Positions 38,912 to 61,514 of a stretch of 64,000 bases of DNA are shown one piece after another; positions within the stretch are counted from its first letter, which is position 1; every line of letters begins with the position of its first letter. Made by a program: the position numbers and the translations under genes. The notes under the pieces are model-generated. The model ran no database searches and had not been told where the DNA came from. It saw only the letters and a program-made list of their open reading frames with translations. Source of the DNA: Bacteroidota bacterium. Lineage in GTDB: Bacteria > Bacteroidota > Bacteroidia > Chitinophagales > Saprospiraceae. The stretch covers positions 186,001 to 250,000 of the forward strand of contig WGNL01000006.1 of assembly GCA_016124585.1 (NCBI GenBank). The letters are read 5' to 3'.

Positions 38912-40426
38912 ATGAAAAATATCGGCCATATCAAGCAAATCATCGGGGCAGTCGTGGACGTGAGCTTCTCTGGTGAAGGCTCTAAACTTCCTGAAATCCT
39001 CAGTGCCCTCGAAGTGACCCGTCCAAACGGTGATAAACTAGTGCTCGAAGCACAACGCCACCTTGGCGAGGACAGCGTCCGTACCATTGCCATGGACTCT
39101 ACCGACGGTCTGACTCGTGGCATGGAAGTCGTAGACACTGGGATGCCTATCTCCATGCCCGTTGGCGATGCCATCAAAGGCCGCTTGTTCAACGTTGTGG
39201 GCGAGGCGATTGACGGTATCGGCCCAGTTTCTCGTGAAAAACAGTACTCCATTCACCGTAAGCCGCCAACTTATGAGGAGCTTTCTGTGGAGAAGGAGGT
39301 GCTTTACACAGGTATCAAGGTAATAGACCTTATTGAGCCTTACATGAAAGGTGGTAAAATTGGTCTCTTTGGCGGTGCAGGTGTGGGTAAGACTGTATTG
39401 ATTCAAGAGCTGATCAACAACATCGCCAAGGCTTACGCCGGTATTTCGGTGTTTGCTGGTGTGGGCGAGCGTACCCGTGAGGGCAACGACCTTATGCGGG
39501 AGATGCTCGAATCTGGCATCATTGACTATGGCAAAGATTTCATGCACAGCATGGAAGAAGGTGGCTGGGACCTTTCGAAAGTGAGCCAAGAGAGCCTCAA
39601 AAATTCTAAGGCAACTTTCGTTTTTGGTCAAATGAACGAGCCACCGGGGGCACGTGCAAGGGTGGCCCTCTCGGGTCTGACGGTTGCTGAATACTACCGT
39701 GATGGCGATCTCAACGACCCAACTGGCGGTCGTGATATCCTTTTCTTTATCGACAATATCTTCCGCTTTACGCAGGCAGGTTCTGAGATGTCGGCCCTCT
39801 TGGGTCGTATGCCTTCTGCGGTGGGTTACCAGCCAACATTGGCCACAGAGATGGGCCTCATGCAAGAGCGTATCACCTCTACGAAGCGTGGTTCCATCAC
39901 CTCTGTACAGGCCGTTTATGTACCTGCTGACGACTTGACTGACCCAGCACCTGCGACAACTTTCGCCCACTTGGATGCCACAACGGTATTGAGCCGGAAG
40001 ATTGCGTCGCTCGGTATTTACCCTTCTGTGGATCCGCTCGATTCTACCAGCCGCATACTTGACCCGCACATTATTGGGCAAGAGCATTATAACTGTGCGC
40101 AACGGGTAAAACTCATCCTTCAGCGCTACAATGAACTTCTTGACATCATCGCCATCCTTGGTATGGATGAGCTTTCAGAAGAAGATAAACTCGTCGTGAG
40201 CCGTGCTCGCCGGGTACAGCGTTTCCTTTCCCAGCCTTTCCACGTGGCGGAGCAGTTTACAGGTACGCCTGGCGTTCTCGTTCCAATTGAAGAAACCATC
40301 CGTGGCTTCAACATGATTTTGGATGGAGAGGTAGACCAATACCCTGAGGCAGCCTTTATGTTGAAAGGTAGCATTGACGATGTAATCGAGGCTGGCAAGA
40401 AAATGCTGGCGACAGAAAACAAGTAA
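38912..40426 (+). CDS. atpD: ATP synthase F1 subunit beta
   Basis: 504 residues, the usual length. [15 protein letters not shown] is the P-loop; [12 protein letters not shown] contains the catalytic Glu; [13 protein letters not shown] and [35 protein letters not shown] include the Walker B Asp and the adenine-contact region. DELSEEDKL is the DELSEED lever that contacts gamma. It forms the three catalytic sites of F1. A consensus promoter precedes it and atpC follows. The rest of the F-ATPase operon starts 16 kb downstream on the same strand. Confidence 0.98.
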
Positions 40427-40506
40427 TTGAAAATGGAAAATTGGCAGCTGACGATTGATAATTATGCATGATGCAACTATCAATTGTCAATTGCCAATTA
40501 TCAATT
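40425..40506. repeat. Heptamer hairpin in the atpD-atpC spacer
   Basis: The left arm is six in-register 7-base units (40425-40466, AATTGAA-like) and the right arm four (40479-40506, ATCAATT-like: ATCAATT, GTCAATT, GCCAATT, ATCAATT). The arms pair unit by unit, giving a stem of about 28 bp with a few mismatches, and the element almost fills the spacer. Confidence 0.82.
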
Positions 40507-40513
40507 TATAGAG

Positions 40514-40819
40514 ATGAATATTACCATCTTAACGCCCGATAAAGAGATTTTCCAAGGAAGTATTGTCTCGGTGAAAGTACCGGGAACACTTGGCGAGTTT
40601 CAGGTTTTGAAAAACCATGCACCCATTGTTTCGTCCCTAGCTTCCGGCACTGTATCCTTGGTGACGGCTGCCGGCACTTATCGTTTCTACGATACTGAAA
40701 CTAGCACTATCATGACGGAAACGCAGCCGGGCCGAACGCTGGAATTCCAGATTGGCGGCGGCTTTATCGAAGTTTTGAACAATGAGATTTCCCTGCTGGC
40801 CAGGGGCGTGAAAAAATAG
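40514..40819 (+). CDS. atpC: ATP synthase F1 subunit epsilon (short form)
   Basis: 101 residues from the ATG at 40514. The N-terminal beta sandwich is complete (MNITILTPDKEIFQGSIVSVKVPGTLGEFQVLKNHAPIVSSL ... ILEFQIGGGFIEVLNNEISLLARG-like ending). The C-terminal helical hairpin of E. coli epsilon (138 residues), which inhibits ATP hydrolysis, is missing. This truncation is common in Bacteroidota and implies no epsilon-type brake. The frame is open ten codons upstream, but those bases belong to the hairpin element. A terminator follows. Confidence 0.95.
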   Translation: MNITILTPDKEIFQGSIVSVKVPGTLGEFQVLKNHAPIVSSLASGTVSLVTAAGTYRFYDTETSTIMTETQPGRTLEFQIGGGFIEVLNNEISLLARGVKK

Positions 40820-40844
40820 TTTTATTTTTATTTCGCTGTTGTTT

Positions 40845-40883
40845 AAGGGAAGGGTTCACAAAACTTTTCCCTTTTTCTTTTTG
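40845..40883 (+). terminator. Terminator after atpC
   Basis: AAGGGAA (40845-40851) pairs with TTCCCTT (40867-40873), with an extra G-T pair inside, followed by a T-rich run. A second palindrome, TCAAGCTCCAGCTTGA at 40889-40904, lies just behind it. Confidence 0.7.
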
Positions 40884-40911
40884 TACCGTCAAGCTCCAGC
40901 TTGATGGTAAA

Positions 40912-59178: not shown

Positions 59179-59186
59179 GAAACAAG

Positions 59187-59753
59187 ATGAGTGTTCAAAG
59201 AATAGCATCAAGGTACGCCAAGTCCCTGATTGACCTTGCTCAAGAGCAGGGGAAGCTCGAAAGGGTGTTGGAAGACGTGCAATCTTTCCAGCAAGTGGCC
59301 AAGAATCGTGATTTCTTGCTCATGCTGCGAAGCCCTGTCGTCAAAGCAGATACCAAAGAAAAAGTTTTTAAGCAGCTTTTTACAGGAAAGTACGATGAAA
59401 CAACCCTTGCTTTTCTGCATATTTTGCTTCGCAAGGGCCGTGAATCTCAGCTGGCGGAAATCGCAAATGAGTTTATTGACCAGTACAAAGCTATCAAGCA
59501 TATTTCTACCGTGAAATTGGTGACTGCTTCTAAACTTAGCGAAGAGACTGTGAAAACTATTCACGAAAAACTCCTTGCCAGTACTTCCACTGACAAAAAT
59601 GTGGAACTGGAAACGGAAGTAGATCCAGACCTCCTCGGTGGTTTTGTCATTGAGTTTGAGGACAAACTCTACGATGCAAGCGTTGCCCACAAACTGGCTC
59701 AACTGAAAAAGAATTTTAAAGACAATCTTTACATCTCGCAAATAATGGCTTAA
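59187..59753 (+). CDS. atpH: ATP synthase F1 subunit delta
   Basis: 188 residues. RIASRYAKSLIDLAQEQGKLERVLEDVQSF, the helical N-terminal domain, and TVKLVTASKLSEETVKTIHEKL then DPDLLGGFVIEFEDKLYDASVAHKLAQLKKNF, the C-terminal part of OSCP/delta, are complete. It joins the peripheral stalk to F1. Both flanking spacers are repeat hairpins. Confidence 0.96.
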   Translation: MSVQRIASRYAKSLIDLAQEQGKLERVLEDVQSFQQVAKNRDFLLMLRSPVVKADTKEKVFKQLFTGKYDETTLAFLHILLRKGRESQLAEIANEFIDQYKAIKHISTVKLVTASKLSEETVKTIHEKLLASTSTDKNVELETEVDPDLLGGFVIEFEDKLYDASVAHKLAQLKKNFKDNLYISQIMA

Positions 59754-59757
59754 AATA

Positions 59758-59846
59758 AGGATTGATGGGTTGAAGGATTGAAGGATTGAGGGGTTCGAGA
59801 TACCCTTGCCTTCTGCCCTTCAATCCTTCAGTCCTTCAATCCTTAA
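59758..59846. repeat. Octamer hairpin in the atpH-atpA spacer
   Basis: The left arm has five 8-base units (AGGATTGA-like, 59758-59797), the right arm CCTTCAAT-like units at 59817-59824, 59825-59832, 59833-59840 and a partial one after. The arms pair over about 30 bases. Same construction as the heptamer elements but with a period of 8. Confidence 0.88.
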
Positions 59847-59851
59847 TAAAT

Positions 59852-61438
59852 ATGATTGACGTAAAACCAGACGAAATTTCCGCCATACTCAAGCAGCAAT
59901 TGAGCGGATTTAGCTCGGCTACCGAACTGGAAGAGGTAGGTACAGTGCTTCAGGTAGGTGACGGTATCGCCCGTGTGTACGGCCTGAACAAAGCACAAGC
60001 TGGTGAACTTGTTGAGTTCGAAACAGGTGTGCAAGCCGTTGTACTCAACTTGGAAGAAGACAACGTCGGTGTGGTACTCATGGGCTCCGGCGACCATATC
60101 CGGGAAGGCTCTACTGTGCGTCGCACAGGCCGTATCGCTTCCTTGGAGGTAGGTGAGGAGTACGTTGGCCGGGTAGTGAACCCACTGGGACAACCGATCG
60201 ATGGTAAAGGCCCAATCGGTGGCAAGAAGTATGAAATGCCGCTGGAGCGCAAAGCCCCCGGTGTAATCTTCCGCCAGCCGGTGAACGAGCCACTTCAAAC
60301 TGGTATCAAAGCGATTGACTCCATGATTCCAATTGGCCGTGGCCAACGGGAGTTGATCATTGGCGACCGCCAAACAGGCAAGACCGCCATTGCCATTGAC
60401 ACCATCATCAATCAAAAAGAATTCTACGATAGGGGCGAGCCTGTATTCTGCATCTATGTTGCCGCAGGACAAAAATCCTCTACCGTTGCCAACGTGGCAA
60501 AAACGCTGGAAGACGCTGGCGCAATGGCTTATACTGTCATCGTGTCTGCTTCTGCTTCTGACCCTGCTCCGCTGATTTTCTACGCACCATACGCAGGTGC
60601 TTGTATCGGCGAGTACTTCCGTGACACGGGTCGCCCAGCGCTTATCATCTACGATGACCTTTCTAAGCAGGCCGTGGCTTACCGTGAGGTATCGCTTTTG
60701 CTCCGCCGCCCACCGGGACGTGAGGCTTACCCAGGTGACATCTTCTACCTGCACAGCCGCTTGCTGGAGCGTGCAGCGAAGGTCATCAACAACGACGCTA
60801 TTGCACAAACGATGAACGACCTTCCGCCAAGTCTCAAAGAGGCTGGTATCGTGAAAGGTGGTGGTTCCTTGACTGCACTTCCTATCATCGAGACACAGGC
60901 AGGTGACGTATCGGCGTACATTCCGACAAACGTAATCTCCATCACCGATGGCCAGATATTCCTCGAAACGAACCTTTTCAACGCTGGTATCCGTCCTGCC
61001 ATCAACGTGGGTATTTCCGTGAGCCGGGTAGGTGGTTCGGCGCAGATTAAGTCGATGAAGAAGGTGTCCGGTACCCTGAAGATTGACCAAGCGCAGTACC
61101 GTGAGTTGGAGGCTTTCTCCAAATTCGGCTCTGACCTTGACGCTGCCACTGTTGCAGTACTTGAAAAGGGCAAGCGTAACGTGGAAATATTGAAGCAGCC
61201 TCAGTATTCACCAGTTGCAGTTGAGAAGCAAGTAGCTATCATTTATCTTGGCACAAAAGGTCTTCTCAAAGATGTGCCTGTGGAAAAAGTGAAGGAATTT
61301 GAAGAGATATTCCTCCTAAAACTAGAGCAGTTGCACCCAAGTGTTCTTGATGATTTCCGTAAAGGAGGCCTCAGTAACGAATCTTTGGCTACCGTAGAAA
61401 AACTCGCTGCGGAATTGGTGCAGCAGTACAAGAAATAA
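59852..61438 (+). CDS. atpA: ATP synthase F1 subunit alpha
   Basis: 528 residues from the ATG at 59852; 22 upstream open codons are inside the octamer repeat and not family-like. [15 protein letters not shown] is the P-loop, [67 protein letters not shown] the long conserved core, and [33 protein letters not shown] the C-terminal part with the Arg finger (SRVGG). It forms the non-catalytic sites. Flanked by repeat hairpins on both sides. Confidence 0.98.
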
Positions 61439-61514
61439 TGATGAATTATGAATGATAAATGGTAAATGATGGGCTTTTCGAAGATTCATCATTTGCCATT
61501 CATCATTCATCATT
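61437..61514. repeat. Heptamer hairpin in the atpA-atpG spacer
   Basis: The left arm has five AATGATG-like units (61437-61471), the right arm ATTCATC-like units at 61484-61511 (four units plus ATT). Similar in sequence to the atpF-atpH element. It begins within the atpA stop codon. Confidence 0.88.

Follow-up and report, generated by a model that had tools for sequence, protein, structure and literature searches.

We analyzed a 64,000-nt stretch of DNA (hereafter the window) from a Bacteroidota bacterium of the family Saprospiraceae (GCA_016124585.1, contig WGNL01000006.1, positions 186,001 to 250,000), in which two ATP synthase operons carry hairpins made of short tandem repeats between their genes. 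In our labels the window is C10:186001-250000 of G000, the 6.63-Mb genome to which it belongs. The gene names of these operons were checked with Pfam. The first operon (38912..40819, + strand) consists of atpD (38912-40426) and atpC (40514-40819). The second (57337..62413, + strand) opens with atpB, whose ATP-synt_A region begins at 57337, and continues with atpE (58245-58451), atpF (58598-59110), atpH (59187-59753), atpA (59852-61438) and atpG (61523-62413), as delimited by Pfam matches and gene calls.

Four spacers of these operons each contain two pairing arms built of short tandem units. These hairpins, all given on the + strand, lie between atpD and atpC (40425..40507, 7-nt units of the AATTGAA family, z -5.1 against shuffled sequences), between atpF and atpH (59109..59178, 7-nt ATGGTGA family, z -6.4), between atpH and atpA (59756..59845, 8-nt AAGGATTG family, z -8.3), and between atpA and atpG (61437..61514, 7-nt ATGATGA/ATGGTAA family, z -6.5). 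The paired arms and their periods of 7, 7, 8 and 7 nt are thus as the original prediction, made from the letters of this DNA, had described them. Predicted RNA fold energies are, in the same order, -30.6, -36.9, -52.6 and -34.3 kcal/mol, and none of the 200 shuffles made for each spacer folds equally low, the atpH-atpA hairpin being the strongest. As RNA, the stems have roughly 25-33 bp with few mismatches. The arms had also been described as beginning at or inside the upstream stop codon, which holds for three of the spacers, where the arm starts at the second base of the stop codon (40425, 59109, 61437), but not for atpH-atpA, where it begins 2 bases past it (59756). The hairpins end 6-8 nt upstream of the next ATG (6 nt for atpC), within the predicted 5-10 bases. 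No Rfam family matched the window at the gathering threshold. The atpB-atpE spacer shows no structure when folded against shuffles (z +1.5). The atpE-atpF spacer has a strong fold (z -4.2), yet lacks a periodic hairpin; it holds a single arm-like GGCAGTT stretch (58523..58554, + strand) whose partner arm is absent, perhaps a decayed element, and similar stretches also occur in the genomes G001 and G006.

Such hairpins are not restricted to these few spacers, as a scan of 1.25 Mb, about one fifth of the genome, made clear. It returned 98 hairpins scoring at least 16, vs none in one order-1 simulation, and 203 scoring at least 13, of which 41 are periodic; one simulated set gave 5 of the latter, none periodic. 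The period is 7 nt in 27 of the 41, 8 nt in 13 and 9 nt in one. The units are diverse (ATGGTGA, AATTGAA, TTATGAG, GGGATGA, GGGTATT, ATTTACG, AAGGATTG, ATTGTTGA and others) and they recur: the ATTCAYCATTCATCATTCA family alone has 66 matches in the genome at up to 2 mismatches, and its reversed control none. The expectation that the hairpins are confined to gene junctions was borne out for 36 of the 41, in a sample where 12.5% of the bases are intergenic; the other five lie within called genes, some of these calls being doubtful. Same-direction gene pairs account for 25 hairpins, convergent pairs for 10, and divergent pairs, which seem to be avoided, for a single one (background 157/910 pairs, binomial p 0.009). 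The distance to a stop codon is at most 10 nt in 33 of the 45 cases measured.

The arms have a marked composition. In the 41 periodic hairpins, which enclose no open reading frame (ORF), the 5' arm has 5% C and 30% G, with the 3' arm mirrored, and 39 of them have more G than C in the 5' arm, vs 86 of the 162 other hairpins. Because such a hairpin reads alike from both strands, RNA of either direction begins with a C-poor arm, an arrangement that, we infer, may keep C-rich single strands from being exposed, for example to Rho. The stability of the hairpins and their position at gene ends, in some cases between convergent genes, could suggest intrinsic or bidirectional transcription terminators. 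We give this explanation practically no weight, as the four hairpins described above lie inside atp operons, no G+C-rich stem with a T run behind it is seen by eye, and terminator-like hairpins form a distinct, non-periodic class in the scan.

To follow the same junctions across species, we compared the atp spacers of our genome and of 13 genomes of the same genus. A periodic hairpin is present in 30 of the 50 spacers by an automatic criterion under which several spacers classed as other look periodic by eye: 7/14 at atpD-atpC, 9/13 at atpF-atpH, 7/13 at atpH-atpA and 7/10 at atpA-atpG. The same criterion found none at atpE-atpF in 11 same-genus genomes. Hence, the period and the arms are present in relatives, and, given the many hairpins elsewhere in the genome, both observations that would have refuted the original prediction are contradicted. 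The units found at one junction often differ between species, and atpD-atpC is empty in two genomes of the genus, where the spacers measure 3 and 6 nt. Among genomes of other genera, G016 and G019 carry such hairpins at atpD-atpC and atpA-atpG, and the automatic criterion detected none in the remaining genomes compared at these junctions. In two atpH-atpA spacers (L154 in G008 and L153 in G012), the arms have different 8-nt units, TTGAGGAC vs the reverse complement of TTGAGTGT; each arm seems to have been homogenized separately, with 5 of the 8 bases still pairing.

One might have expected the hairpins to set cistron-specific mRNA stability in the ATP synthase operon, with structure selected over sequence. 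The folds are very stable and likely RNase III substrates, and their presence at 30/50 junctions despite sequence change would fit such a role. We nevertheless find it very unlikely: atpD-atpC is empty in those two genomes, most of the other genera examined lack the hairpins (G016 and G019 have some), and our own genome carries them at many unrelated junctions, 10 of them convergent. The setting of subunit ratios, which had been put forward as a reason for their existence, finds no support, given the convergent genes (10/41), the other operons and the two empty sites.

A different origin is indicated by elements in which the arms enclose a gene. The full copies have, between their periodic arms, a single gene encoding a four-helix-bundle protein of the 23S_rRNA_IVP family (PF05635; IVP hereafter). 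In G026, a genome of the same order, the atpD-atpC spacer itself has periodic arms around a PF05635 ORF; the four atp copies of our window are without it. Our genome has 7 PF05635 matches at 6 loci, two of the matches representing halves of a single broken copy. Inverted flanks, mostly with a period of 7, occur at every one of the six. The ORF-less copies are far more frequent, with 41 in 1.25 Mb vs 6 gene-bearing loci in 6.63 Mb. Apart from IVP genes, the scan of 1.25 Mb found one long-range pair of periodic arms around a called gene, and it arises from separate neighboring hairpins of the same unit family.

The association between IVP genes and such arms holds in larger samples. Of 58 loci from the genus and from two relatives, 54 have inverted or periodic flanks (inverted score at least 13 or periodic score at least 11). 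This set comprises our 6 loci, 40 same-genus loci chosen among the matches listed, and 12 of 24 loci collected earlier from relatives, from which L217 and the other-genus loci were excluded, except L220 and L225. Of the 24 earlier loci themselves, from which L216, L221, L224, L231 and L232 had been left out because they are cut by contig ends, 20 pass these thresholds by our reading, with periods of 6-10, and L210, L213, L230 and L235 fail. PF05635 matches occur in 116 of the 148 sampled genomes of the phylum. We then took the best 80 of at least 587 named genome loci and added 12 viral contigs. The named loci are mostly from Bacteroidota, with others labelled Chlorobiota, Desulfosarcina, Planctomycetota, Omnitrophota and Clostridia; some labels of metagenome-assembled genomes outside Bacteroidota may be contamination. 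The 90 of these loci with enough flank include the near-duplicate viral loci L319, L320 and L328, which were excluded from the tree and the Mantel test described below. Inverted flanks (score at least 14) were found in 37 (shuffled 0.2%) and a periodic flank (score at least 11) in 54 (shuffled 1.1%). Among the 305 other ORFs at the same loci, used as a control, 7 have inverted and 43 periodic flanks; of the seven, the arms are clearly periodic in three and, by eye, in one more, and the two of these four that were scanned are IVPs themselves. Periodic segments cluster near the gene, with 94 of 153 at most 400 nt from an IVP ORF, in 14% of the bases.

The same arrangement occurs in Cyanobacteria. 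We selected the 13 best-ranked of 29 cyanobacterial plasmid records with an IVP match, and all 13 genes have inverted or periodic flanks (shuffled 1.5%). Periodic arrays were found in 18 of 26 IVP flanks, vs 5 of 24 windows at other gene ends of these loci. The arms are made of heptamers like GGGAGTA and CAGGGAA. In L408, L411 and L412, an IVP gene with 7- or 8-nt arms lies inside a CRISPR-Cas operon, in the arrangements cas6|IVP|cas4 and cas10|IVP|cmr3. One query of phage records returned no IVP match. A motif scan for 23S context around L201-L236 and L237-L328 gave only single isolated matches, at L241 and L307. The GxxExxY nuclease (PF13366) was considered as a partner gene and rejected, as it is absent from the genome.

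We also compared protein distances with unit similarities. In a broad set of 2920 pairs, all from different genera and different junction clusters (a record without a genus name counting as its own genus), the Mantel correlation is 0.117, and none of 2000 permutations reaches it; it is 0.095 (p 0.003) for pairs from different families, and 0.272 in the genus set, again with 0/2000 permutations as high. The mean unit cosine is 0.377 at tree distances of 0.6-0.9, vs 0.188 in the reversed-arm control, so that reversed arms too score somewhat higher between close IVPs, and it falls to 0.027 beyond a distance of 2.2 (control 0.028). In a tree of 94 IVPs, clades share a unit across junctions and families, such as GTTGNNN in Flavobacteriaceae and Hymenobacteraceae. 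The arms of IVP elements have a composition like that of the ORF-less copies, with 8% C. When we compared the 41 ORF-less hairpins with the arms of 54 IVP loci, the mean best cosine was 0.65, vs 0.32 for reversed and 0.29 for unit-permuted hairpins, and 29 of the 41 exceeded 0.5, vs 6 of the reversed ones. The atp hairpins follow this trend in three cases: the atpD-atpC unit matches that of L204 in our own genome (cosine 0.70), the best match of atpF-atpH is L203, also in our genome (0.66), and the atpA-atpG unit matches the same-genus locus L396 (0.90). As free DNA should be saturated at such protein distances, the unit would have to be held by selection, most simply through a protein that reads it. 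That every IVP lineage has a unit of its own suggests that the protein most likely binds its own unit array, as RNA or as DNA. This dependence on IVP families also speaks against the hairpins being regulators of ATP synthase.

It bears as well on the explanation that the hairpins are immobile and their arms are built in place at gene ends by replication slippage and template switching, which would also keep the two arms alike, IVP genes merely landing there. Several observations agree with this: orthologous junctions keep a hairpin and change its unit, the loops of the ORF-less copies look mutually unrelated by eye, and the two arms agree better in register (0.90) than when offset by one unit (0.79; 29 of the 37), as would be expected if one arm were copied from the other. 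Yet identical unit families turn up at numerous loci, even in distantly related genera, and they are tied to the IVP lineage; slippage alone does not select units by protein clade. There are also empty sites of 3-6 nt beside filled ones. Taken together, we regard expansion in place as unlikely.

Comparison of further junctions shows that the elements come and go. Six of 49 IVP junctions of relatives could be traced in the sampled part of G000: the same IVP is present at one, another is empty, and at the other four an ORF-less hairpin with a different unit is seen by eye. Under a loose uniform rule, 3 of 5 traced junctions have a hairpin, vs 52/910 junctions (Fisher p 0.0016) or 52/542 spacers (p 0.007); under a strict rule, 2 of 5 do, vs 36/910 junctions (p 0.014). 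Conversely, IVPs that are 82-90% identical and have like units lie at unrelated junctions, e.g., L228 and L233, or L401 and L402 within one genome. Junctions of fatty-acid, succinate-dehydrogenase and other operons are occupied in several genera, with different units. As called by clustering of the flanking genes, the junction between a fadB-like gene and a thiolase gene (identified by Pfam in L316) is used by 12 of the 80 named loci, in several orders and including L262, L291 and L283; in L283 and L291, the junction next to it holds a second IVP. The same junctions, compared between species, thus show gain, loss and exchange of copies. We tried 34 IVP pairs for the ratio of nonsynonymous to synonymous substitution rates (dN/dS). 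Among the 18 with finite dS, 16 have values of 0.02-0.08 and two have 0.33 and 0.56, the latter with a dS of 0.01. Hence, IVP genes are under purifying selection.

We consider it probable that the atp spacers hold ORF-less copies of a mobile family of hairpin elements, akin to the intervening sequences (IVSs) of 23S rRNA, whose protein reads its own repeat. The full element consists of a periodic arm of tandem 7-, 8- or 9-nt units, a PF05635 gene and an inverted copy of the arm; the ORF-less copies, common in our genus, are two arms around a short loop. Elements settle at gene ends, where they reach from a stop codon almost to the start of the following gene; they do so within operons and where genes converge, but seldom ahead of divergent genes. 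The IVP, a pentameric ring in one solved relative (PF05635-type structures include 2gsc and 2rld), would bind the unit array of the element's RNA or DNA, and ORF-less copies may depend on IVP supplied from elsewhere. Copying should need no reverse transcriptase, because no RVT_1 gene was found in our genome; a reverse transcriptase acting in trans was rejected on the same ground. Since stems of 25-33 bp with few mismatches should be cut by RNase III, the atp messages are probably split, as IVSs split 23S rRNA, and this processing of the operon is likely a side effect. The placement in the atp operons would mainly be tolerated insertion rather than a conserved regulator. The original prediction had offered a mobile or self-expanding family that tolerates gene junctions. 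Its mobile half is well supported by the many units, the unit swaps, the empty sites, the placement at gene ends and the IVPs with like units at unrelated junctions; its self-expanding half is conjectural.

Several results weigh against this interpretation. In five IVP-rich genomes from other families, we found no ORF-less hairpins in 400 kb, where the density of our own genome would predict about 13. The IVP count thus failed as a predictor of such hairpins, which suggests that another factor, host or time, decides on multiplication. For comparison, four genomes without IVP likewise gave none, in 320 kb. Twelve of the 41 ORF-less hairpins match no IVP arm at a cosine above 0.5, among them atpH-atpA, whose AAGGATTG family has no cognate IVP among the sampled loci (best cosine 0.28). 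The coupling of unit and protein could also arise if the arms and the gene simply move jointly, with no binding involved. The IVP trees are weakly resolved, with 123-127 columns, 44 of 91 inner branches open in the tree of 94 IVPs and long-branch warnings in that of the genus set. Arms of 8-nt units are no longer than those of 7-nt units, contrary to what a simple model with the same number of units for every pentamer would give. Variation within the unit shows no clear preference for any one part of it (z at most 2.0), so that a recognized core is not visible. No sharp insertion point was found: when 61 periodic stretches are aligned on the stop codon, agreement with the period increases gradually, being about 0.3 ahead of the codon and reaching about 0.75 roughly 8 nt past its first base. 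No target site duplication was seen by eye, in a comparison that lacks very close pairs of filled and empty sites. Finally, the evidence for turnover comes from comparisons between species and not from movement within populations or from biochemistry. On the measurements just given, two models of the arm were rejected, one with a conserved core and a free spacer in each unit and one in which arm length is counted in units.

These elements recall several known systems. Short IVS forms lacking an ORF exist, and the long forms, like the elements described here, combine a stem-loop with complementary borders and a gene for a four-helix-bundle S23/IVP protein. The accessible text of PMC4990558 describes IVSs of 23S rRNA as stem-loops at tolerated sites, patchy among relatives, some with a PF05635-type ORF and several excised by RNase III. 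The elements of this study differ from them in lying at junctions of protein genes instead of in an rRNA gene, and in having arms whose tandem 7-9-nt units go with the IVP lineage, a feature that the same text does not describe. The literature examined gives no function for PF05635 proteins, which are widely annotated in bacterial genomes as four helix bundle or S23 ribosomal proteins. According to the accessible part of PMC5524665, a four helix bundle gene is placed between the guanylate kinase and nicotinate-nucleotide adenylyltransferase genes, a placement of the same kind as that of the IVP elements here. Avd proteins are alike to PF05635 proteins in sequence and structure, as stated in the accessible part of PMC10053308, and one IVP gave a weak bAvd match; diversity-generating retroelements differ from the present case, where RVT_1 was not found. 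No title or abstract among the literature matches listed joins IVP genes to periodic arms, although subscription papers were mostly uncovered and this absence is not proof.

Heptamer repeats of a similar kind go by the name of short tandemly repeated repetitive (STRR) sequences, to which the hairpins had been likened from the start. The likeness is apt, since IVP genes on cyanobacterial plasmids are flanked by arms of such heptamers, and both are intergenic tandem arrays, with a period of 7 in 27 of the 41 hairpins here. Direct heptamer repeats (e.g., TAACTGA) are known from intergenic regions of distant phyla, namely Cyanobacteria, Bacteroidetes and Beggiatoaceae (PMC4679880, accessible text). 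For these repeats "no mechanism is evident", and the main text of that paper holds none of the words "four helix", "23S" or "intervening". Whereas it treats direct repeats, the arrays here form inverted pairs and come with an IVP gene. Much more tentatively, and as an idea that we would sooner doubt than believe, one could see in all this a single mobile class, spread across many phyla, that copies or moves through one small non-enzymatic ring protein, the IVP, reading a lineage-specific array of 7-9-nt units. The scattered heptamers of Cyanobacteria and Bacteroidota would then be its arms and their remains, and the IVSs of 23S rRNA a branch that settled in rRNA. One unit per IVP lineage, if true, would link two old puzzles, the function of IVPs and the heptamer arrays, and make both testable together. 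Junctions in core operons, such as those for ATP synthase, succinate dehydrogenase, fatty-acid oxidation and CRISPR, would then also contain hairpin insertions at which the messages may be cut.

There is a likeness, too, to miniature inverted-repeat transposable elements (MITEs) and to REPINs, hairpins formed by repetitive extragenic palindromic (REP) sequences: ORF-less copies outnumber gene-bearing ones, and both are intergenic and near gene ends. As in MITEs, the arms are shared with a gene-bearing relative (29/41), the IVP element, whose autonomy is putative. They differ in that the partner gene is no known transposase, that the arms vary between copies of one genome, and that neither a terminal tag nor, by eye, a target duplication turned up here. 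One could propose that the hairpins are REPIN-like elements mobilized by a RAYT (Y1) transposase, as short intergenic hairpins in many copies would be. The genome even has a separate family of REP-like palindromes, CGTAACACGG..., around a weak Y1_Tnp match (C35:60968-61183). We find this proposal hardly credible, because the periodic hairpins share, by eye, no tag with the CGTAACACGG family, because the genome's three Y1_Tnp matches are all weak and two have internal stops, and because the gene between the periodic arms is an IVP. The second family itself consists of paired CGTAACACGG(A/T)CTG..CAG(T/A)CCGTG palindromes with unrelated loops and looks like REPs with a RAYT. Its pairs lie in G000 at C35:60735-61568, 20042-20132, 64523-64619 and 65983-66075, and at C23:224179-224264 and 321958-322052, and two of the palindromes surround a 217-aa frame with the weak Y1_Tnp match.

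The window contains a fifth, weaker hairpin (27164..27244, + strand, z -3.2) with 9-10-nt GTTGATAA-like units, which misses the strict and the loose automatic criteria alike. It lies between a gene for a GMC oxidoreductase and one for gluconate-2-dehydrogenase subunit 3, as identified by Pfam. In G012, this junction holds an IVP element with a different unit (L367). Elsewhere in G000, a hairpin of CACAGAGGCGCAGAGACGCAGAG units (C5:275078-275143) has no IVP match among the loci used; its unit is of a kind known from other phyla. Two periodic hairpins, C23:15238-15312 and C10:125806-125879, lie within long high-scoring frames and are possible insertions into coding sequences. In the window, tandem CCCTCAC/CCCTCAT heptamers at 43983-44016, within a called gene (43539-44834), are perhaps one arm of such a coding-region element.

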